Positions 3,338-12,893 of a stretch of 64,000 bases of DNA are shown piece after piece (position 1 is the stretch's first letter; each line of letters starts with the position of its first letter). Location: contig NZ_CP010271.1 of NCBI RefSeq assembly GCF_001456355.1, positions 2,232,001 through 2,296,000 of the forward strand. Reading direction: 5' to 3'. The translations under genes and the position numbers were made by a program. The DNA comes from Mycobacteroides saopaulense. Lineage in GTDB: Bacteria; Actinomycetota; Actinomycetes; Mycobacteriales; Mycobacteriaceae. The notes under the pieces were generated by a model. That model did no database searches and was not told the DNA's origin. It worked only from the letters and a program-made list of their open reading frames with translations.

Positions 3338-5671
3338 TCAGCTGAAGACGCCGGGCAGGTTCAGGATCGAGAGGCTGTCGTTCTTGCGCGGGTCGTCGTG
3401 GATCATGTACGTCCACGTCGACGTCGGCCGGGCGAGCTTGGACAGATCCAGTCCCTGTTCTTCGTCAACCAGATTCGCGGTGTCGAAGGTCTGCTGGGCT
3501 GCTTCCACCGCGTCGGCGGCCAGCGATGCGAACGCGTCGACGGCAAGCCGGTGGAACTCGTCGATCGGATTCTGTCGTCCGAGCGCCCGCAGGTGGATGC
3601 TCTCTCGTACATCGGAGAGGTACGCCAGGTGATCTGCCCAGCCCCGATCGAGGTGATACAGCATGATCTGCCGCGAGATGCGCTCCAGCCGCTCTTCGGA
3701 AAGTTCCTCGGCCAGCTCGTCGTAGCGCTCGGGAGAACGTTCCTGCAGTTCCTTGCGGGCGGTGTCGGTGCGCAGCAGGGTGTCACGACGATCGGAGATG
3801 ATGGCGCGCTGCTGTGCGATCAGCTGGTTGTAACGCCAGGTGTTGGCATGCAGGTCGAGCATCGCGCCCTCGGCGACGCGCTGGGCGTGGTCGATCAGGC
3901 CGCCGGCCTTGGGGCTGACGATCTGTCCGTCGTCATCGGTTTCGGTGGGTAGCTTGGCCGAATCCAGGTGTGCCACAACGACCTCGTCCTCCCAGCTGGA
4001 GAAGAACACCGAGGATCCCGGGTCGCCCTGGCGTCCGGCGCGCCCGCGTAGTTGGTTGTCGAGCCGTTCGGTGCGGTGCCGCCCGGTGCCGACGACATGC
4101 AGCCCACCGGCCTCGACCACGGCGGCTCGTCTCTTGGGGTCCGACTCGTCGGACCCGCCCAGCCGGATGTCGGTACCGCGGCCGGCCATCTGGGTGGAGA
4201 CCGTCACCACGTTGAGCGCCCCGGCCTCGGCGATGACGCGCGCCTCCTCGGCGTCGTTCTTGGCGTTCAGAACCACCGCGGGAACCCCCGCCCGCACCAA
4301 CCGGTGATGCAGCGCCTCGGATTCGGCGACGTCGTGCGTGCCGACGAGCACCGGCTGGCCGGTGGCGTGGATCTCGGCGATATGCGCGACGATCGCGTCG
4401 TTCTTGCTCGCCTCGGTGATGAAGACGCGGTCGGGTTGATCCTCGCGAATGTTCGGGGTGTTGGGCGGGATCGGTGAGACCCCCAGCTTGTAGAACTGCC
4501 GCAGCTGCTCGCCGGCCGCGAGCGCGGTGCCGGTCATGCCGCTGACCCGCGGGTAGCGGTTGATGAGCGCCTGCACGGTGATGGTGTCGAGAACCTCACC
4601 GGTGTCGGTGGTTTCGATGCCTTCCTTGGCTTCGACGGCCGCCTGCAGGCCGTCGGGCCAGCGCTGCAGGGCGGCGATGCGCCCGCGTGAGGAGTTGATG
4701 AGGTGGACGGCTCCGTCACGCACGATGTAGTGCACATCGCGCTCCAGGAGCACGTGCGCGTGCAGTGCGACGTTCACCTCGGTGAGGGTGGTTCCGACGT
4801 GGTGTTCGGAATACAGGTCGATGTTCCCCAGCCGCTTTTCCAGCTTCTGGGCACCGGTGTCGGTCAGGAAGATGTTGCGGCGGTCGTTGTCGGCCTCGTA
4901 GTCCTCGCCGGCGGTCAACTCGCGTACCGCCTCGATGACCTCCGAACTGGGTGCCTCCCGGTGGCTGGTTCCGGCCAGCACCAGTGGCACCAGCGCCTCG
5001 TCGACGAGCACGGAGTCGGCCTCGTCGACCACGGCGACATCGGGACTCGGCGACACCAGGTCGTCGACATCTATCGCCAACTGGTCGCGCAGCACATCGA
5101 AACCGATCTCGTTGACCGATCCGTAGGTGACGTCGCAAGCGTAGGCCTTACGACGTTCGTCGGCGGTGGACTCCTCGGTGATCCAGCCGACAGTCAGACC
5201 CATCCGCTCCAGGAACGGTCCCATCCATTCGGCGTCGCGCCGGGCCAGGTAGTCGTTGACCGAGATGACGTGCACGCTGCGTCCGCCCAGCGCGTAGCCG
5301 GCGGCCGTGATCGCTCCGGTCAGGGTCTTGCCTTCGCCGGTGGCCATCTCGATGACGTCGCCGTCGAGCATGCGCAGTGCGCCCAGCAGCTGCACATCGA
5401 AGGGCCGCTCGTCGATCGTGCGTTCGGCGGCCTCGCGCACGATGGCCAGGAATTGGCCGATGTCCTTGGACTCGAGGCCCTCGGTGAGGTCGAGCTTCTT
5501 GGCCGCCTTGGTGAGCTGTTCGTCGGTGAGGTCCTTGGCCTTCTCGTCGTACTTCTTCGAGGCATCGACGAGCTCCAGCGACTGGCTCTGGTTCTTGTCG
5601 GTGGTGGCACCGAGCAGCTTCCAGAACTTTCCGGTGAACCGTGAGGCGGTGTTCGACTTGCGCACATGCAC
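3338..5671 (-). CDS. secA2: accessory preprotein translocase ATPase SecA2
   Basis: 777 residues, the usual SecA2 length and shorter than SecA1 (about 900 or more). Walker A is T-G-E-G-K-T at 111-116 and Walker B is V-V-D-E-A-D at 214-219. The helicase motif II region G-T-D-I-R-L-G-G and the [11 protein letters not shown] motif are intact. The C-terminal zinc/SecB-binding tail of SecA1 is absent, as expected. SecA2 exports a small set of proteins, including virulence factors, together with SecYEG. The start is a GTG at 5671; an in-frame GTG at 5665 is possible. It begins the minus-strand block that continues into pgsA2. Confidence 0.96.
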
Positions 5672-5710
5672 ACGGTACGTCAGAGCACGATGGGCGCCCG
5701 ATAAGCACCG

Positions 5711-6544
5711 TCAGGCGAACTCCACGATCACCGAATCGGCGACGGCCCGGAATCCGAGCTTGCGGTAGATCGAGTTGGAGGTCGGGTTGGCCAGGTCGGT
5801 GGTGAGGACGATCTCGCGTGCCCCGGCCCGGTACGCCCAGGCACAGGCGGCAGCGGTGATGGCGCTGCCGTAGCCGTGGCCGCGGTGCTGTCGCGGCGTG
5901 TAGACCGGGCCGATTCGCGAGACGCCCTCGATCGGTGCGCGCACGCCCGCCATCGCAACGGGGGTGCCGGCCTGTTCCCAGCGCAGGTAGACGTCCCCCA
6001 GCTGATAGGAACCGGCGAGCCAGAGCAGTGCCTCGGCGGCCTGCTTATCGGCGCCGAAGGTTTCCTTGGCGTATTCGATGCTCCAGGGCACCAGGGACTC
6101 GATGTTCCCGGGGGCGACCAGCGTCGGCTTCCCCGGAACCCGTGGCGAGAGCAGATCGGTGAGACGGTAGAGCCGCTCGTCGGTGGTGGCCGCGACGGTG
6201 GCGCCGGTCGACCTTGTCCAGGCTTTAGCCAGGGCCTCGGTCACCCCGCGCGATCCGCGTACCGAGGGCAGCCGAATTGCGCGATCTGTCAGCAGGCCGA
6301 CGGTTGGGCCGACCCCGGGGCCGGGGATGGCATTGCACATGAGCCCCTGACCGGTGCCGAATGCGGCGCCCACCAGCTCGTCCCGATCGGTGAACGTGAT
6401 GAGCGTCAGCGCCGGATCGGGGCCGGTCTGTCGAAGCCGTGCCGCCACGTGAAGCTCGAAGGTGTGCACCACGGGATCGGCGGAATACAGCGGCCCGGCC
6501 AGGGCCCAGTACTGCGCCAGATCCTCGTGAAGATGCGCCCGCAT
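5711..6544 (-). CDS. GNAT-family N-acetyltransferase
   Basis: 277 residues. The C-terminal half carries the GNAT fold with the acetyl-CoA loop R-G-H-G-Y-G (about 225-230) preceded by V-Y-T-P, and the late N-P-T-S-N-S-I-Y-R-K-L-G-F motif typical of the family. The N-terminal half is a divergent domain with no clear signature. The substrate cannot be predicted. It lies between the secA2 block and the acyl-CoA dehydrogenase, on the same strand as both, and may be transcribed from its own promoter. Similar two-lobed acetyltransferases are common in mycobacteria. Confidence 0.85.
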   Translation of the reverse strand: MRAHLHEDLAQYWALAGPLYSADPVVHTFELHVAARLRQTGPDPALTLITFTDRDELVGAAFGTGQGLMCNAIPGPGVGPTVGLLTDRAIRLPSVRGSRGVTEALAKAWTRSTGATVAATTDERLYRLTDLLSPRVPGKPTLVAPGNIESLVPWSIEYAKETFGADKQAAEALLWLAGSYQLGDVYLRWEQAGTPVAMAGVRAPIEGVSRIGPVYTPRQHRGHGYGSAITAAACAWAYRAGAREIVLTTDLANPTSNSIYRKLGFRAVADSVIVEFA

Positions 6545-6580
6545 CGCCCTAGCGTGATACGGCGGCGCTGGTGTGTCGAG

Positions 6581-7858
6581 CTATTTCTCTGCCAGCAGCC
6601 CCTTGGCGATATGGGTGATCTGAACTTCGTTGCTGCCGGCGTAGATCATGAGTGACTTGGCATCGCGTGCCAGCTGTTCGACGCGGTACTCCGTCATGTA
6701 GCCGTTGCCGCCGAAGAGCTGCACGGCGTCCATCGCGACATCGGTGGCGGCCTCGGAACAGTACAGCTTGATGGCAGAAGCCTCCGCCAGCGACGGTGTC
6801 TTGTTCTCCGACAGGCTCTCGATGGCGTGGAACAGCATGTTGCGCACATTGAGTCGCGCCACTTCCATCTTGGCCAGCTTGAGCTGGATGAGCTGGAACT
6901 GAGCAATTTCCTTGCCCCACAAGGTACGTGTCTTGGCGTAATCCAGCGAGAGACGCAGACACTCTTCGATGACTCCGAGTGCGAGCGCCGCCACCCCGAT
7001 GCGTTCCATCGAGAAGTTGGCGCGCGCGCTGTCGCGGCCGTCTCCCTGATCGTTGGACTCGGTCTCGCCGAGCAGCCGATCCTTACTCAGGCGCACGTTC
7101 TCGAAGAACAGCTGGCCGGTGCGGGAGCTGTGAATCCCCATCTTGCGGAAGGGCTTCGACTGCGTGAAGCCTTCCATACCCTTGTCCAGCACAAAGGTCA
7201 GCACCTTGCGATCCCGCTTGTCGACCGACGGGTCCTTCTCGTCCAACTTGGCGTAGACGACGATGACGTCGGCGTCGGGCCCGTTGGTGATGAAGGTCTT
7301 CTGGCCGTTGAGGATGTAGTCCTCACCGTCGCGTGTCACGTAGGTCTTCATGCCGCCGAATGCATCGGAGCCCGAGTCGGGTTCGGTGATGGCCCAGGCG
7401 CCCACCTTCTCGTAAGTGACCAACTCGGGCAGCCAGCGCTCCATTTGCGCGGCGGTGCCGCGGGAGGCGATGGTCGGCACGGTCAGACCCATGCTCACGC
7501 CCATACCTGTCACGAGACCCATGCAGACGCGCGAGATTTCGCTGGTGAGAACGAATCCCATGCCGGCCGAGCCGCCGGCCAGGCCCATGGCTCCCCCGCC
7601 GCCGTCGGATTTCTTGGAATCCGACGGCGGCTCTCCGGCCGCGAGCGCGGCTTCACGAGCCTTCTTCTTCTCGATCTGCTTCTGCAGCGCCTCTTTGGCA
7701 AGAGCGTCGATGCCGAAGGTGGCGAACATCTTCCGGATGATGGGGTACGGCTCCATCTCGCCGGATTCCAGTGCATCGACGTGAGGCCGGACCTCCTTGT
7801 CGATGAACTGGCGAACGGCGTCACGCACCGCGAGGTCAATGGGTGACCAGTCGAGCAT
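6581..7858 (-). CDS. acyl-CoA dehydrogenase, isovaleryl/long-chain-type active site
   Basis: A FAD enzyme that oxidises an acyl-CoA to the 2-enoyl-CoA. 425 residues from the ATG at 7858; the frame runs further upstream without family similarity. Family signatures are W-A-I-T-E-P-D-S-G-S-D (155-165) and the C-terminal Q-L-F-G-G-N-G-Y (380-387). The usual MCAD catalytic Glu position reads Y-A-G-S (Ala407). Glu285 in S-M-E-R-I aligns instead with the catalytic Glu of isovaleryl- and long-chain acyl-CoA dehydrogenases. A charged, Gly-rich insert (about 60-98) separates the N-terminal helices. It lies 58 bp after the SRPBCC gene and shares its direction, so it is probably in the same operon under the TetR-type operator. 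Confidence 0.92.
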   Translation of the reverse strand: MLDWSPIDLAVRDAVRQFIDKEVRPHVDALESGEMEPYPIIRKMFATFGIDALAKEALQKQIEKKKAREAALAAGEPPSDSKKSDGGGGAMGLAGGSAGMGFVLTSEISRVCMGLVTGMGVSMGLTVPTIASRGTAAQMERWLPELVTYEKVGAWAITEPDSGSDAFGGMKTYVTRDGEDYILNGQKTFITNGPDADVIVVYAKLDEKDPSVDKRDRKVLTFVLDKGMEGFTQSKPFRKMGIHSSRTGQLFFENVRLSKDRLLGETESNDQGDGRDSARANFSMERIGVAALALGVIEECLRLSLDYAKTRTLWGKEIAQFQLIQLKLAKMEVARLNVRNMLFHAIESLSENKTPSLAEASAIKLYCSEAATDVAMDAVQLFGGNGYMTEYRVEQLARDAKSLMIYAGSNEVQITHIAKGLLAEK

Positions 7859-7916
7859 GTGTCCTGCTTTCTTCGGTGAAAGTGGTCGATAACGAACGGG
7901 CCCGGCCCGGGGCTCG

Positions 7917-8393
7917 TTAGCCGAGTTCCTTGGCCAGCAAGTCCTTGAGGCGGGCGACGGAGTTCTCGAGCTCCTCCTGCACGGCCTTGTCGATGGCGGT
8001 GCCGATCGCACCGGTCAGCATCTGCCCGGTGAAGGACGAGTCCACGTTCACCCTGGTGTTGTCGGCGTCGATTTCCTCGACGCTGGACTTGATGATGGCC
8101 TCGACCCCGGCCATGCCGGTGCCCCCCAGCTTGAAGGCGCCCTTCTTGGCGGACAGCACCTCGGCGGCGGGGGTGAACTCCTGCACGGTCCACTCGACCG
8201 TGTTGGCCATGCCCATCAGGGTGACGATCTCGGAGAACTTGGTACCGACCTTGATGTCTTCGACCGCGGGGACATCGCCCTTGAATCCGGTGTGGATGGT
8301 CATCCACTCGTCGTACTTGTTGAGGTCCGGCAACACCGACCAGAGCTTGTCGATGCTGTACGGGAGATCAATGCTGGAGTGCAGCTCGGACAT
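7917..8393 (-). CDS. SRPBCC (CoxG/polyketide-cyclase-like) protein
   Basis: 158 residues forming one START-like SRPBCC domain: it begins with the typical S-S-I-D-L-P-Y-S-I-D-K-L-W-S-V-L-P-D and ends in the long helix with E-L-E-N-S-V-A-R-L-K-D-L-L. The fold binds hydrophobic ligands such as lipids, sterols or quinone precursors. No catalytic function can be assigned. The ATG at 8393 has a strong AAAGGAG sequence. The acyl-CoA dehydrogenase follows on the same strand. The operator at 8454-8475 overlaps its probable promoter, placing it under the same control as the two ABC1 kinases (inference). Confidence 0.86.
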   Translation of the reverse strand: MSELHSSIDLPYSIDKLWSVLPDLNKYDEWMTIHTGFKGDVPAVEDIKVGTKFSEIVTLMGMANTVEWTVQEFTPAAEVLSAKKGAFKLGGTGMAGVEAIIKSSVEEIDADNTRVNVDSSFTGQMLTGAIGTAIDKAVQEELENSVARLKDLLAKELG

Positions 8394-8453
8394 GGGCGAA
8401 AGACTCCTTTGTCTATGGACTGGCACGGATTGATGCCAACGGCTCCGAACGTA

Positions 8454-8475
8454 ACATACATACCCTCGTGTATGT
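8454..8475. promoter_or_regulatory. operator copy 1 (ACATAC-N10-GTATGT), SRPBCC promoter
   Basis: Inverted repeat ACATACA-N8-TGTATGT. On the minus strand the sequence reads GGTATGTATGTTA, and the same 13-mer recurs at the third copy (12300-12312, plus strand). A plausible -10 (TATGTT) for the SRPBCC gene is built from the operator itself. The spacing and arms are those of a dimeric TetR-family site. Confidence 0.75.
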
Positions 8476-8604
8476 AAGATCCAATTCCTGCAGATCTCGC
8501 GCGTCGAACTGACTAAATGCAGGTATATGGCGGTTAAATACCGACAGACCTGTGGGCGTTGGAGCCTTAACCGGTCGCAACCTGACGGTAGCCGGGCGCA
8601 CGTT

Positions 8605-8634
8605 ACATACAACTGTGCTCGTATGTATTACAGT
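8605..8634. promoter_or_regulatory. operator copy 2 with leaderless promoter of ABC1 kinase 1
   Basis: Inverted repeat ACATAC (8605-8610), N10, GTATGT (8621-8626), with the same arms and spacing as copy 1. A -10 hexamer TACAGT sits at 8629-8634, seven bases before the ATG at 8642. Transcription would therefore start at the initiation codon (leaderless). The operator occupies the -35/-10 spacer, an ideal position for repression. Confidence 0.75.
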
Positions 8635-8641
8635 GGCGCTC

Positions 8642-10162
8642 ATGACCACCCCCGAGGGCGCGGGCAACGACGCGGCGCCCCTCGCTACCGGACTGTCCGA
8701 GAACGGGAAATCTACGCCCGTCACCCGGGAATCTACCTCGGAGCCACCCTCCGAGGGGGCGGAATCGCCTCCTGCCAGTGGGGCGATCGATATCGAGATC
8801 ACCCGCCCGAGGGTCCGGTTGCATCCGCCACCGTTTCGGGTGGAGGCGGGGCGGTTTGCACTCACGGTTTCCCGACTCGCCGGATCGGGCGCGCGCCTGC
8901 TGGTGAAGCCCCGACGTGGCAAGCCCCTCGAGGTGCGGGCCGCGCACGAGCTGCGTCGGACGTTCGCGCTCATGGGCCCCACCTACGTCAAGCTCGGGCA
9001 GCTGATCGCGTCTTCGCCCGGCGTCTTCCCCGAAACGCTCTCCAACGAATTCCGCACGCTGCTCGACAGGGTGCCACCGGCGTCCTCGCAGCTGATCCGG
9101 CAGACCGTGCGCGAGCAGTTAGGCGCCGACCCGGCAACGATTTTCGCGACATTCGACGATCACCCGTTCGCGTCGGCCTCTATCGCGCAGGTTCACCGCG
9201 CGACGCTCAAGACCGGCGAGCGTGTGGTGGTGAAGATTCAGCGCCCGAAGATTCGTACCAGGCTCGCCGCCGACGTCCGGATCATCGGGCGGCTCGCGCG
9301 TGTGATCGTCAAGACCGACCTGGGCCGGGCCACCAATGCCACGGAGATCGTCGAGGACTTCGAGCAGAACCTCAACGAGGAGCTGGACTTCGCCGCCGAG
9401 GGGCACGCGATGGAGCAGTGGATCGCGAGCCTTGCCGACACCGAGTACGGCGATAAGGTGCGCGTTCCCAAGGTCTTCTGGGAGTACACCACCGAGCGGG
9501 TGCTCACGATGGAGTATGTCGAGGGCATCAGGATCGACAACATTGCCGAGCTGGCCTCGGCGGGATTCGACGGCGTCGGACTGGTCAAGGCCATCGTCTA
9601 CTCGCTGTTCGAGACGGGGTTTCACAAGGGGCTCTTCCACGGAGACCTGCACGCCGGCAATCTGTTGGTGGACTCCGATGGCCGGATCGTGTTCCTGGAC
9701 TTCGGCATCGTGGGGCGTATCGACGAGCGCAGTCGCAAGATTTTTACCGAGATCATGGTCGACCTGTTCGTGAAGAACGACCACGCGGCGGTGAGCCGGG
9801 GCATCTACAAGCTTGGCGCCATCGGTGATCGGGGTAAGTCCGTGGATCCGGCGACGGCCGGTAAGACGATTTCCGACTTCACCAATCCCCTGCAACAGTC
9901 CAAGCTTTCAGCGATCGAGTACGGGCAGCTCGGCAAGCAGTTGGCAGTGCTGGCCAAGGAATACGACGTTCGGCTTCCCCGGGAGCTGGTGCTGATCTCC
10001 AAGCAGCTGCTCTACGTGGAGCGGTACATGAAGCTGCTGGCTCCCGACTGGGCGCTGCTCTCGGATCCGTCGTTCATCGGATACTTCGGGAACATGGTCA
10101 TCGCGGCCGAGCAGTCACGCATGGAGGATGCCGCGGCACGGGAGTCGGCGGGCGGAAACTGA
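8642..10162 (+). CDS. ABC1 (UbiB/AarF-type) atypical kinase 1
   Basis: 506 residues. The ABC1 domain is complete. It has the K-x-G-Q motif (K117-L-G-Q120), the alanine-rich loop F-A-S-A-S-I-A-Q-V-H (176-185), the ATP-site lysine K198 in V-V-K-I-Q-R-P, H-G-D-L-H-A-G-N (333-340) and L-D-F-G (352-355). In bacteria the family supports quinone or other isoprenoid-lipid metabolism as ATPases rather than classical protein kinases; the target here is unknown. About 70 Pro/Ser/Glu-rich residues precede the domain and are missing from kinase 2. The ATG at 8642 was chosen because the promoter -10 ends seven bases upstream. The upstream in-frame ATG lies before the operator. Confidence 0.92.
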   Translation: MTTPEGAGNDAAPLATGLSENGKSTPVTRESTSEPPSEGAESPPASGAIDIEITRPRVRLHPPPFRVEAGRFALTVSRLAGSGARLLVKPRRGKPLEVRAAHELRRTFALMGPTYVKLGQLIASSPGVFPETLSNEFRTLLDRVPPASSQLIRQTVREQLGADPATIFATFDDHPFASASIAQVHRATLKTGERVVVKIQRPKIRTRLAADVRIIGRLARVIVKTDLGRATNATEIVEDFEQNLNEELDFAAEGHAMEQWIASLADTEYGDKVRVPKVFWEYTTERVLTMEYVEGIRIDNIAELASAGFDGVGLVKAIVYSLFETGFHKGLFHGDLHAGNLLVDSDGRIVFLDFGIVGRIDERSRKIFTEIMVDLFVKNDHAAVSRGIYKLGAIGDRGKSVDPATAGKTISDFTNPLQQSKLSAIEYGQLGKQLAVLAKEYDVRLPRELVLISKQLLYVERYMKLLAPDWALLSDPSFIGYFGNMVIAAEQSRMEDAAARESAGGN

Positions 10163-10163
10163 G

Positions 10164-10877
10164 TCAGTCGGAAAGGCTCAGCCTTCCGGTGTCGATCGTG
10201 CGCAGGGCAGAGTCGAGCGGTGCGCCGACCGTTGGCGACTCGACGATGTTCAGCAGCATTGCCTTGGCGCGGGCCCAGCGCTGATCGCGAACCTCTTGCG
10301 GGGCGGTCATGCTGTTGACCAGTATTCCGCGGACGGCATCCATCGCGGTGAGGGTGATGTTCCGAATGATGCGGAGTTCTTCGGCGGTCTGGCTCACCGA
10401 TTGTCCAAGTGTCGAGAATTGTTGCATCACAATGAATTCGAACTGGTCCATCTGTGCGGACAATTCCGGATCGGTACGAGCGGCGATCCACAGTTCCATG
10501 GTGGCGATGAACATCGATCCCTGATGCATGCGCCAGAGTGCGTCAAGGCAGCGGCTGATGAAATCGGAGTCGCTTTCGCGGTCCAATGCGATCAGCTCGG
10601 ACAGGATCTCCTGGCCCTGCTTGAACGCCAAGTGCCGCACGGATTCTCCGAGAAGCTCGGATTTCGATTGGAAATGGTGCACCAGGGCGCCGCGGGTGAC
10701 ACCGGCACGCTGGGCCACCCGGGTGGTCGTGGTGCCCGCGTATCCGTACTTGACCAGGCAGTCCACCGTGGCATCGAGCAGCCTGCCGCGCATGGCCGCG
10801 CTGCGCTCCTCCTGGGTTCGTCGTTCGGCGCGTTGGGTACGGGCGGTCCGCGCCGGACTTCCGGCGGTGCGTGTCAT
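10164..10877 (-). CDS. TetR-family regulator of the ABC1-kinase regulon
   Basis: 237 residues. The DNA-binding domain has the helix-turn-helix at about 49-70 (T-T-T-T-R-V-A-Q-R-A-G-V-T-R-G-A-L-V-H-H-F), preceded by about 25 basic residues, and is followed by an all-helical ligand domain. Its ATG overlaps the stop of ABC1 kinase 2 (ATGA), so the two are [12 protein letters not shown]. The end of kinase 1 converges one base away. Because its own operon and two nearby units carry the same palindrome, it is the likely repressor of all three (inference). The inducer may be a lipid or acyl-CoA. Confidence 0.88.
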   Translation of the reverse strand: MTRTAGSPARTARTQRAERRTQEERSAAMRGRLLDATVDCLVKYGYAGTTTTRVAQRAGVTRGALVHHFQSKSELLGESVRHLAFKQGQEILSELIALDRESDSDFISRCLDALWRMHQGSMFIATMELWIAARTDPELSAQMDQFEFIVMQQFSTLGQSVSQTAEELRIIRNITLTAMDAVRGILVNSMTAPQEVRDQRWARAKAMLLNIVESPTVGAPLDSALRTIDTGRLSLSD

Positions 10878-12241
10878 TCTCCGAGCCCGTCCTTGTCGTT
10901 CTTGATTTCCTCGCGGGCCTGCTGGTACTCCGATATCAGGCTGCCAAAATAGGTGAGAATCTCCGGGTCCCCCACCGGCTGCCAGTCGGGCGCAAGCAGT
11001 TTGGTGTATCGCTCGACGTAGAGCAGCTGCTTGCCCACCAGGATGAACTCCTTGGGCAAAATGGCGTCGTGCTCGCGGCCCAGCGAGGTGAGTTGTCGGC
11101 CTATGGTGCCGTACGAGATCTTGCCCAGCGAGGTGCCCATGGGCCGGGTGACCTTCCGCAGTGACGCGGCGACTTTGGCGGGGTCGGCATGGGGATCGAT
11201 GGCTCCCAGCTTGATGAGCGTGCGCGCGGCGGCCTCGTCGTCGGGCTCGATGATCAGCGCGCCGATCAGCTCGCGCAGGGTTTTGCGGGTTCGCTCATTG
11301 AGGCGGCCCACGATCCCGAAGTCCAGGAACACGATTCGCCCTGCCGGGTCCACCATCAGGTTCCCGGCGTGCAGATCGCCGTGAAAGGTGCCTGCGGCGA
11401 ACGCGGAGTCGAACAGGGTGAGCATCAGGGTCTTGACCACTTCGGGGCCGTTGAATCCCGCCGCGCGGATCGCGTCCGCGTCGTCGATCCTGATGCCCTC
11501 GACGTACTCCATGGTGAGCACCTTGTCGGTGCAGAGGTCCGGGTAGAGCTCGGGCACACGTACTTTGGGGGCGTACTTGGAGCCCGCGAGCCCCACCGTC
11601 CAATCCCGCATGGCCTGCGCTTCCAGGGTGAAGTCGAGTTCCTCGGCGAGATTGGCCTCGAAATCGCGCATCACCTCGTAGATGTTCGACATCCGGCCCA
11701 TCTCGGTGAGCTCGAGACCGCGGGCGATCTGTTTGAGGATTTGCAGATCGGCGGCCAGCCGGGTGCGGATCGCGGGGCGCTGGATCTTGACGACGACAGC
11801 GGTGCCGTCCTTGAGCGTTGCCCTGTGCACCTGCGCGATGGACGCCGACGCGAACGGGACCTCGTCGAACGAGGCGAAGGCATTCTCCGGTGGTGCGCCG
11901 AGCTCGGCGGCGAGCATGGATCGGATGGTCTTGGGGTCCGCCGGCGGCACCTGATCGAGCAGCGAGCGGAACTCCGCGGAAAGGTCTTCGGGGAACATTC
12001 CCGGCGACGACGCGATGAGCTGCCCGAACTTGACGTAGGCGGGCCCGAGCTCGGCGAATGACCTGCGCATCTCCTTGGCAACGACCTGACGCAGGTCCCG
12101 CTCCGTCGGGCGTTGGCTCAGGATTCGTGACCCGGCCTTGAGAAGCTGGCCCGCCGTCGCGGCGAGCCGATCGAACTGAATCTCGGCGGAAACCGGATCG
12201 AGCCTCCGGGGCCGCCGGGGCTCATCGGATGTATCGCTCAC
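10874..12241 (-). CDS. ABC1 (UbiB/AarF-type) atypical kinase 2
   Basis: 455 residues, a clear paralogue of kinase 1 with all motifs in place: K-F-G-Q (71-74), F-A-S-A-S-I-A-Q-V-H (130-139), V-V-K-I-Q-R-P (about 150-156), H-G-D-L-H-A-G-N (287-294) and L-D-F-G (306-309). I chose the GTG at 12241 because GGGAGGGAG lies just upstream; in-frame ATG 12259 and GTG 12262 remain possible. It leads a two-gene operon with the TetR regulator. Having two family members under one operator suggests related or partner functions in lipid or quinone handling (inference). Confidence 0.91.
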   Translation of the reverse strand: MSDTSDEPRRPRRLDPVSAEIQFDRLAATAGQLLKAGSRILSQRPTERDLRQVVAKEMRRSFAELGPAYVKFGQLIASSPGMFPEDLSAEFRSLLDQVPPADPKTIRSMLAAELGAPPENAFASFDEVPFASASIAQVHRATLKDGTAVVVKIQRPAIRTRLAADLQILKQIARGLELTEMGRMSNIYEVMRDFEANLAEELDFTLEAQAMRDWTVGLAGSKYAPKVRVPELYPDLCTDKVLTMEYVEGIRIDDADAIRAAGFNGPEVVKTLMLTLFDSAFAAGTFHGDLHAGNLMVDPAGRIVFLDFGIVGRLNERTRKTLRELIGALIIEPDDEAAARTLIKLGAIDPHADPAKVAASLRKVTRPMGTSLGKISYGTIGRQLTSLGREHDAILPKEFILVGKQLLYVERYTKLLAPDWQPVGDPEILTYFGSLISEYQQAREEIKNDKDGLGE

Positions 12242-12283
12242 CGCGACTCCCTCCCTCATCACCGGGTCGTGTACGTCGAGGAG

Positions 12284-12312
12284 ACATTACCGACAAACTG
12301 GTATGTATGTTA
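12284..12312. promoter_or_regulatory. operator copy 3 at the kinase 2/tetR promoter
   Basis: The plus strand reads ACCGAC (12289-12294), N10, GTATGT (12305-12310) followed by TA. One half-site is perfect and the other matches 4 of 6. The 13-mer GGTATGTATGTTA at 12300-12312 is identical to the reverse complement of copy 1. On the minus strand a -10 TAATGT (12289-12284) lies just downstream of the conserved half-site, about 40 bases before the kinase 2 start. Confidence 0.7.
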
Positions 12313-12375: not shown

Positions 12376-12771
12376 TTAGCGCAGGGCGCGTTCGACTTGG
12401 GCTATCCGATCGTCTGCGAAGTCCAGCACGATCTTCGTGGGGTACAGCGCGACCTTGAGTACGCGGATGAGCGGGTTGACGACGTCGATCAGCGTTTCGA
12501 GGCTCGTCATCGTGTTGGCCAGGGTTGTGGTGGTTTCGGCCAGGTTGTTCAAGGTGAGATTGAGCGAGTCGAGGGAGTCGTCCAGTCGCTCCAGGCTGGA
12601 GTCCAGGTGGTCCAGCATCGAGCCCACCCGATCGGTGAGGTCGTGAACCTCGACGGCCATCGATTCGATGTGTCCGACGGTGCCGTCGATGTTGAGCGCG
12701 ACGTTGGCCAGCTTCCGGATCTTGCGTGCCGGCGCGGGCCGGTTCCCGTTGCTGGTGTAGACCTCCGCCAT
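12376..12771 (-). CDS. coiled-coil hypothetical protein
   Basis: 131 residues from the ATG at 12771, with GGAAAGG eight bases upstream. Residues about 45-95 form a heptad-rich coiled coil (repeated L-x-x-L-D-x-S-L). They are followed by a hydrophobic stretch, V-V-N-P-L-I-R-V-L-K-V-A-L-Y-P, that could be membrane-associated. No signal peptide is visible. The product resembles small mycobacterial proteins of unknown function with methyl-accepting-like helices. Its neighbours are the kinase 2 promoter and the FAD oxidoreductase, and no operon link to either is evident. Confidence 0.7.
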   Translation of the reverse strand: MAEVYTSNGNRPAPARKIRKLANVALNIDGTVGHIESMAVEVHDLTDRVGSMLDHLDSSLERLDDSLDSLNLTLNNLAETTTTLANTMTSLETLIDVVNPLIRVLKVALYPTKIVLDFADDRIAQVERALR

Positions 12772-12893
12772 TGGAGTCACCTTTCCGTTGCGCCCAGACT
12801 AGGTGACGCGTTCGCCGAGACCGATCGGCTCCCCCGCTGAGCGGTCATTTGATGCACTTTTGTGACCGGCCTCACACAGCGTGCCGGGTCTGC

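Follow-up and report, generated by a model that had tools for sequence, protein, structure and literature searches.

What ties a small group of lipid-linked genes of Mycobacteroides saopaulense together, and which regulator acts on them? The question is raised by a stretch of 64,000 nucleotides (NCBI RefSeq assembly GCF_001456355.1, contig NZ_CP010271.1, positions 2,232,001 to 2,296,000; hereafter the window), in which related palindromes stand before three transcription units. These units encode an SRPBCC protein with an acyl-CoA dehydrogenase, one ABC1 kinase, and a second ABC1 kinase with a TetR-type regulator, here TetR1; the assignments were made in a first-pass annotation from the letters alone and are borne out by Pfam. 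The comparisons described here, which draw on the sites, their conservation, gene content and the co-occurrence of site and regulator, lend good support to a predicted pairing of this TetR subfamily with the palindromes, and to a beta-oxidation regulon that is split between two distant loci. The candidate operators and the genes, in window positions, are as follows.

8454..8475, minus strand: operator 1, at the promoter of the SRPBCC-acyl-CoA dehydrogenase unit; exact ACATAC-N10-GTATGT, with a nested exact N6 frame at 8458-8475.
8605..8626, plus strand: operator 2, at the promoter of ABC1 kinase 1; exact ACATAC-N10-GTATGT.
12289..12310, minus strand: operator 3, at the promoter of the ABC1 kinase 2-tetR unit; two mismatches in the N10 frame, one in the N6 frame at 12293-12310.
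6581..7858, minus strand: acyl-CoA dehydrogenase (first step of beta-oxidation); PF00441, PF02770 and PF02771; 69% identical to the copy in the L158 operon described below.
7917..8393, minus strand: SRPBCC lipid-binding-type protein, 158 amino acids; PF10604; NF047960 at 132.1 bits against a cut-off of 100.
8642..10162, plus strand: ABC1 kinase 1, 506 amino acids; PF03109 at 252 bits; KLGQ, ASASIAQV, HGDLHAGN and LDFG present.
10164..10877, minus strand: TetR1, the presumed repressor; its gene is probably co-transcribed with that of ABC1 kinase 2.
10874..12262, minus strand: ABC1 kinase 2, 462 amino acids; PF03109 at 242 bits; motifs intact; 52% identical to kinase 1; 4-bp overlap with tetR.

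The first-pass annotation counted three copies of ACATAC-N10-GTATGT. This holds for operators 1 and 2 but is overstated for operator 3, which reads ACCGAC-N10-GTATGT in that frame, with ACCGAC as its left half, and whose two mismatches rule it out as an exact third copy. Its better fit is ACATAC-N6-GTATGT, with one mismatch. Operator 1 satisfies both frames simultaneously and, on its minus strand, shares the 13-mer GGTATGTATGTTA with operator 3, as had been reported. The claim that no further half-site pairs occur in the window also stands, since at up to two mismatches the only extra match is the overlapping frame of operator 1. Chance would provide 0.49 matches in the window (standard deviation 0.77), and the count of four was reached in 0 of 100 shuffles. 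Exact N10 matches were likewise absent from 300 second-order Markov windows, in which matches in either framing, with one mismatch allowed, had a mean of 0.04 and a maximum of 2, against four at three places observed.

The host genome is a single contig of 4.65 Mb. Throughout its length the exact N10 form occurs at three places, namely the two window operators (2240454 and 2240605) and 2095018, and the one-mismatch N10 form at a single place, 331041. The exact N6 form is found only at 2240458 (operator 1), and the one-mismatch N6 form at 2244293 (operator 3) and 533477. At up to two mismatches the counts only mildly exceed those of the reversed control (41 vs 26 for N10, 38 vs 24 for N6), so that only the best-matching sites stand out. 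The match at 2095018 was rejected as a member of the regulon: it sits inside an open reading frame, and its best score with the position weight matrix (PWM) described below is -4.5. By eye, this frame resembles phospholipase D, which is a candidate identity. The site at 533477 has a PWM score of 10.1 and adjoins genes resembling lipid enzymes.

In an alignment of the window with seven other Mycobacteroides genomes (L016-L022; eight genomes in all), the three operators are conserved blocks in 8/8 genomes. Of 22 columns each, 21 are invariant in operator 1, 20 in operator 2 and 19 in operator 3, and the resulting 60 of 66 compares with 110 of 277 elsewhere in both intergenic regions (p 5e-15). 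Moreover, a TANNNT hexamer abuts every operator on its gene's side.

8448..8453, minus strand: TACGTT, directly downstream of operator 1; a -10-like hexamer predicted from its form.
8629..8634, plus strand: TACAGT, 7 nt before the ATG at 8642; a candidate -10-like hexamer in leaderless geometry, called from sequence and conservation.
12284..12289, minus strand: TAATGT, abutting operator 3 with a 1-bp overlap; a putative -10-like hexamer read from the sequence.

The operator of the second locus described below is likewise directly followed by TACGTT. Because scans with the sigma-70 consensus detected no promoter in either intergenic region, the -10 calls are based on the TANNNT form and on conservation. 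The earlier placement of operator 2 in the spacer between the -35 and -10 elements of a leaderless promoter fits in part: the operator would span the -35 region as well as the spacer and ends 2 bp before TACAGT, whereas leaderless initiation is plausible in a region where the sigma-70 scan was empty. Given the overlap of 4 bp between the kinase 2 and tetR genes, operator 3, which is predicted to stand at TetR1's own operon, would also give autoregulation.

The one-mismatch site at 331041 leads to a second locus, 1.9 Mb from the window module, where it lies between the gene for TetR2, a protein 56% identical to TetR1, and a run of genes for a thiolase, a MaoC-type hydratase and a short-chain dehydrogenase (SDR). 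This locus and its one-mismatch site are kept in the same seven Mycobacteroides relatives (L023-L029). The thiolase is of the SCP2 type, with 682 bits against a cut-off of 436 for PRK08256 and a 577-bit match to solved SCP2-thiolase type-1 structures (6hsj, 6hsp, 6hrv), and it contains NNNCSTGS, which we take to be the catalytic cysteine motif of thiolases.

Together with the SRPBCC and acyl-CoA dehydrogenase genes of the window, the second locus makes up the gene set that relatives hold in a single operon. Twenty-four regions around TetR matches outside Mycobacteroides (L091-L114) were fetched, and genes were called with a custom script, which missed the TetR of L022. In 13 of these regions, TetR, thiolase, SRPBCC, MaoC, SDR and acyl-CoA dehydrogenase form a single run (L094, L096-L098, L100-L103, L105, L107, L108, L112 and L113; ten of these regions are from other GTDB genera and three from the same genus), in L098 with a small called gene interposed. 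The order is TetR-[site]-SCP2-type thiolase-SRPBCC-MaoC-SDR-acyl-CoA dehydrogenase, and the TetRs of these full operons are 43-50% identical to TetR1. Based on this gene content, the module likely serves a complete beta-oxidation cycle with a lipid-binding-type protein. The ancestral state was probably a single operon, from which Mycobacteroides would have duplicated the regulator and split the enzymes. The first-pass view of one regulator over a compact lipid- or quinone-linked module therefore keeps its link between the TetR subfamily and the operator, as carried by comparison, but not its compactness, with one locus 1.9 Mb from the other.

TetR1 has the TetR_N helix-turn-helix and the all-helical fold of the TetR family, and is 97% identical in M. 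chelonae S00154. In a fold comparison many TetR structures score almost equally, fatty-acid and acyl-CoA regulators among them, and the ligand cannot be named from it. The presence of the site tracks this TetR subfamily and not the target operon. The thiolase is present in 94 of 201 family genomes at E up to 1e-140. Once repeated upstream sequences and loci without a thiolase of at least 65% identity had been removed, 46 upstream regions were kept, in which the site was sought within 400 bp at no more than one mismatch and a TetR1-type gene within 1500 bp. The site occurs in 15 of 17 regions beside a TetR1-type gene (own locus included) vs 2 of 29 without one (Fisher p 3e-8), and the reversed pattern in 0 of 46. 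The two exceptional loci are L158 (G012) and L179 (G015), and each of these genomes has a gene for a TetR1-type protein at another place. Conversely, among the 27 loci with neither the site nor a neighbouring TetR1-type gene, 25 belong to genomes that yield no TetR1-type match at E up to 1e-43. L168 (G061) and L170 (G026) make up the remainder, each being an additional thiolase copy in a genome where the other copy carries the site. The misses beside a TetR1-type gene, L093 and L105, carry three and two mismatches, respectively. Because no more than 14 candidates were scored in each genome, the search for TetR1-type proteins could have passed over a weak regulator. Three regulators beside thiolase operons that do not belong to the subfamily were checked with Pfam; two lie above the TetR_N cut-off and that of L168 below it.

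Scans of whole genomes agree in kind. Eight TetR-bearing genomes of five genera contain 21 N6 matches at up to one mismatch (one an overlapping frame) vs 7 for the control, and each of the seven exact N6 sites is no more than 1.6 kb away from the TetR gene. Outside Mycobacteroides, 16 of the 24 TetR regions have the site at up to one mismatch, often as an N6 form flanked by more half-sites and about 26 bp long. A PWM was built from 23 such sites, with one frame per overlapping cluster; two (L112, L113) are from the same GTDB genus, and the set excludes five sites that have the N10 form only, of which L103 contributes one and L112 and L113 two apiece. Over 206 kb of M. saopaulense DNA, its highest scores fall on operator 1 (29.9), the second-locus site (19.1), operator 2 (18.9) and operator 3 (18.7), while 50 simulated windows of 64 kb gave a maximum of 17.8 with a median of 6.6. 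When shifted frames of operators 1 and 3 are excluded, the next scores are 15.1, for a palindrome of another kind next to a third TetR, and 15.0, for a second site at the tetR2 end.

Several observations weigh against this reading, both here and in the case of the kinases below. Operator 3 is an imperfect site, and operators 2 and 3 score barely above the simulated maximum. The PWM test is also not fully independent, because its training sites were chosen by near-match to the earlier pattern. Eight of the 24 nearer TetR regions lack the site at one mismatch, and in two genomes (G012, G026) operon and TetR gene lie far apart. Finally, a more distant set of 28 loci (L030-L057; 41-53% identity; Pseudonocardiaceae, mostly Amycolatopsis and Kibdelosporangium, and one Rhodococcus) has the site at up to one mismatch only in L036 and at up to two in 7 of 28; the other 21 have none in the fetched stretch, and no thiolase gene lies beside any of the 28. 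The site is thus not fixed to every protein of similar identity.

The alternative that fares best, although we consider it clearly the less probable, is that TetR1 acts on the window genes alone and TetR2 on the thiolase locus alone, the two regulons being alike through duplication of the regulator. Either locus has a TetR of its own, one half of the thiolase site reads ACATTC, and the two TetRs fall into separate clades, which group together in the tree with moderate support (82/100, under the program's own mark for firm branches). Against such a separation, the recognition helices of the two proteins are nearly identical (AGVTRGAL(V/I)HHFQSKSEL in most rows), and the enzymes of both loci complete one cycle and elsewhere belong to one operon. 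Since the sisters nearly share this helix, the "one regulator" of the split regulon may be two cross-acting TetRs.

How the kinases relate to this lipid operon is a separate question. Both belong to the ABC1 atypical kinase family, with PF03109 and the KxGQ, alanine-rich loop, HGDLHAGN and DFG motifs, which we take to be those of the family. Their scores stay under the cut-offs of the UbiB equivalog TIGR01982 (328.1 and 322.3 bits vs 487.55) and of the MABP-1 equivalog NF050082 (98.7 and 107.5 bits vs 800). The host genome has 11 full-length ABC1 genes; among the ten loci scanned, only the window pair has the site and the eight others have none, while for the eleventh, at 4130311, the genome-wide list of N10 and N6 sites has none nearby, the locus itself not having been scanned. 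A site at every ABC1 gene is excluded by the copy at 3634411 (L159), which has none, and by L117, which has none even at three mismatches. The idea that the motif would recur upstream of ABC1 genes elsewhere thus gave a mostly negative result: in addition to the eight loci of the host, 27 of 29 homologous loci in other genomes are without it, and the ABC1 link outside Mycobacteroides comes down to one strong case, both of which count on the opposing side.

That case is L129/L158 of G012 (inferred Jongsikchunia kroppenstedtii), the strong positive among the 29 loci. Here an SRPBCC-like gene, ABC1, thiolase, MaoC, SDR and acyl-CoA dehydrogenase run in the same direction; the ABC1 protein is 57% identical to kinase 1, and the thiolase, MaoC, SDR and acyl-CoA dehydrogenase are 74%, 66%, 75% and 69% identical to their counterparts. 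The SRPBCC-like gene, at 26% identity, is under the family cut-off. One operator lies between ABC1 and thiolase and a second, with two mismatches, before the SRPBCC-like gene; neither was among the training sites of the PWM, on which their scores are 24.1 and 20.4. In L155 (G001), a genome that also has the TetR type, a one-mismatch N10 site lies 54 bp before the likely ABC1 ATG; its PWM score of 7.4 is no better than a chance-like 7.3 in L130, and as an ABC1 operator it is suggestive only. Counting L158 and L155, ABC1 loci with the site number 2 of 6 from TetR-type genomes vs 0 of 23 from others (p 0.04).

The neighbours of other relatives vary. In G026 (inferred Skermania sp. ID1734; L157:585-11604), a relative of kinase 1 (56%) has menD, menC and a demethylmenaquinone methyltransferase gene in its vicinity, each scoring above its cut-off, together with a menJ-like gene just under its own (634 vs 700), a neighbourhood that points to menaquinone. 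In 14/14 same-genus loci, the relative is found beside hydrolase and cyclopropane-synthase-like genes. In the ABC1 tree, support for a grouping of kinase 1 with kinase 2 is weak (87/71), and the L158 copy falls in with the wider group (80/96); because of this weak support, common descent of the operon kinases cannot be claimed.

The kinases could therefore be passengers, that is, ABC1 genes that landed beside a lipid operon and became co-regulated while having no part in the pathway. We regard this as unlikely, somewhat more so than separate regulons. The restriction of the site to the window pair among the ten ABC1 loci scanned is in its favour, as is the lack of a called ABC1 gene beside the operon in the 13 full operons outside Mycobacteroides. 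Yet two kinases with two separate operators have been kept in 8/8 genomes, and L158 has an ABC1 gene within an intact operon. Finally, recognition of the palindromes by some other protein, or their being promoter-linked repeats unrelated to TetR, is very improbable: TetR binding is predicted from sequence and most distant homologues (21/28) are site-free even at two mismatches, but site presence follows the TetR subfamily, and the exact sites of other genomes cluster at the TetR gene.

For the split regulon with its TetR-operator pairing, the following mechanism is proposed, in which we infer binding, repression, the nature of the ligand and of the lipid substrate, a role for the kinases, and the sharing of sites between TetR1 and TetR2, along with the direction of the split. 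In the ligand-free state, TetR1 and/or its sister TetR2 would sit on a palindrome of 22-26 bp, which takes in the -35 region and reaches as far as the -10 hexamer; RNA polymerase would thereby be sterically excluded, which is the simplest mechanism. An acyl-CoA or other lipid ligand, by analogy with MadR probably an acyl-CoA, would release the repressor. Derepression would then provide acyl-CoA dehydrogenase and the SRPBCC carrier from the window, the thiolase, MaoC hydratase and SDR hydroxyacyl-CoA dehydrogenase from 1.9 Mb away, and the two ABC1 kinases as well. Because the electrons of acyl-CoA dehydrogenase pass to menaquinone, it is proposed that the ABC1 proteins, as UbiB/COQ8-like ATPases, may support the menaquinone or membrane-lipid side of the pathway. 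More specifically, and only as a tentative suggestion, they might be dedicated ATP-driven partners in lipid or menaquinone handling. Jointly with the SRPBCC carrier, they would supply the SCP2-thiolase cycle with a branched or complex lipid from the membrane and ensure that menaquinone, the electron acceptor of the cycle, stays available.

A number of observations concern the surroundings of these genes. The operon SRPBCCs pass NF047960, the "Rv0910 family toxin" model, with 132 bits in the window, 168 in L209:9157-9597 and 175 in L165:1031-1453. The adjacent called genes encode operon enzymes, in a survey that did not systematically look for small genes such as that of an antitoxin. For the SRPBCC proteins of this operon, the toxin label looks doubtful and is probably misleading. 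Genes for a GNAT acetyltransferase and secA2 (window 3338-6581) follow the acyl-CoA dehydrogenase gene on its strand, separated by about 36 and 39 bp, short enough to make read-through from operator 1 into secA2 possible. A 134-amino-acid protein (12376-12780) with weak Mce-like matches adjoins ABC1 kinase 2 and belongs to a cluster of 8 members from 8 loci, counting the window. The third TetR (41% identical) lies with an acyl-CoA dehydrogenase gene downstream of a palindrome with perfect 19-bp arms (L116:11634-11677), probably another regulator-operator pair. Sites of the operator class, or its two-mismatch form, also occur in other genera beside SDR, aldehyde dehydrogenase and alpha/beta hydrolase genes (L101:12125; L036:4920; L050, L051, L053, L055 and L056 at about 4930-4977). 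With such neighbours, the degraded lipid may perhaps derive from an ester or an aldehyde.

Among known systems, the KstR/KstR2 cholesterol regulons of mycobacteria likewise involve TetR repressors, lipid catabolism and a short palindrome at several promoters. Their operator sequence differs from those of the window, we know of no ABC1 kinases in them, and TetR1 scores 26.7 bits against the KstR equivalog cut-off of 280. The best NCBIfam match of TetR1 is ScbR, yet at 52.5 bits it lies under the cut-off of 150. Operators of the ScbR/ArpA gamma-butyrolactone receptors resemble ACATAC-type palindromes; the window site differs from these systems in standing at lipid enzymes. The mycobacterial lipid regulators MadR and FasR have the TetR fold and lipid genes in common with TetR1, which scores 27.4 bits against 330 for the FasR model. 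MadR, described as being released by saturated acyl-CoAs (PMC8872791), differs in that it governs mycolate desaturation. The kinases share the ABC1 domain with KxGQ, alanine-rich loop and DFG with the UbiB/COQ8 family and with MABP-1 (Rv3197), an ATPase described as having the ABC1 fold (PMC6208485). Literature searches found no regulon for SCP2-thiolase type-1, and PMC3406046, as far as its retrieved part goes, deals with another thiolase-like protein. No description of this operator or regulon was recognized in those searches, in which the motif string was too unspecific to be conclusive; "abscessus" and "ABC1" are absent from the main text of PMC4482099, one of whose figure motifs may overlap with the present one.

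Control of beta-oxidation by TetR proteins is a known kind of circuit, and other TetR lipid regulons are the closest kinds; the split and the kinases are the variant features. Distinctive are an operator class that can be traced with its regulator across genera, the placement of one catabolic set at two distant loci that have both retained this operator class, and the presence of ABC1 kinases in the regulon. The bacterial function of UbiB/COQ8-like proteins becomes directly testable in a pathway that is defined, probably inducible and equipped with two such genes under their own operators. If the ABC1 proteins are indeed working parts of this pathway, UbiB-type kinases would have a physiological and inducible role in an organism that uses menaquinone.

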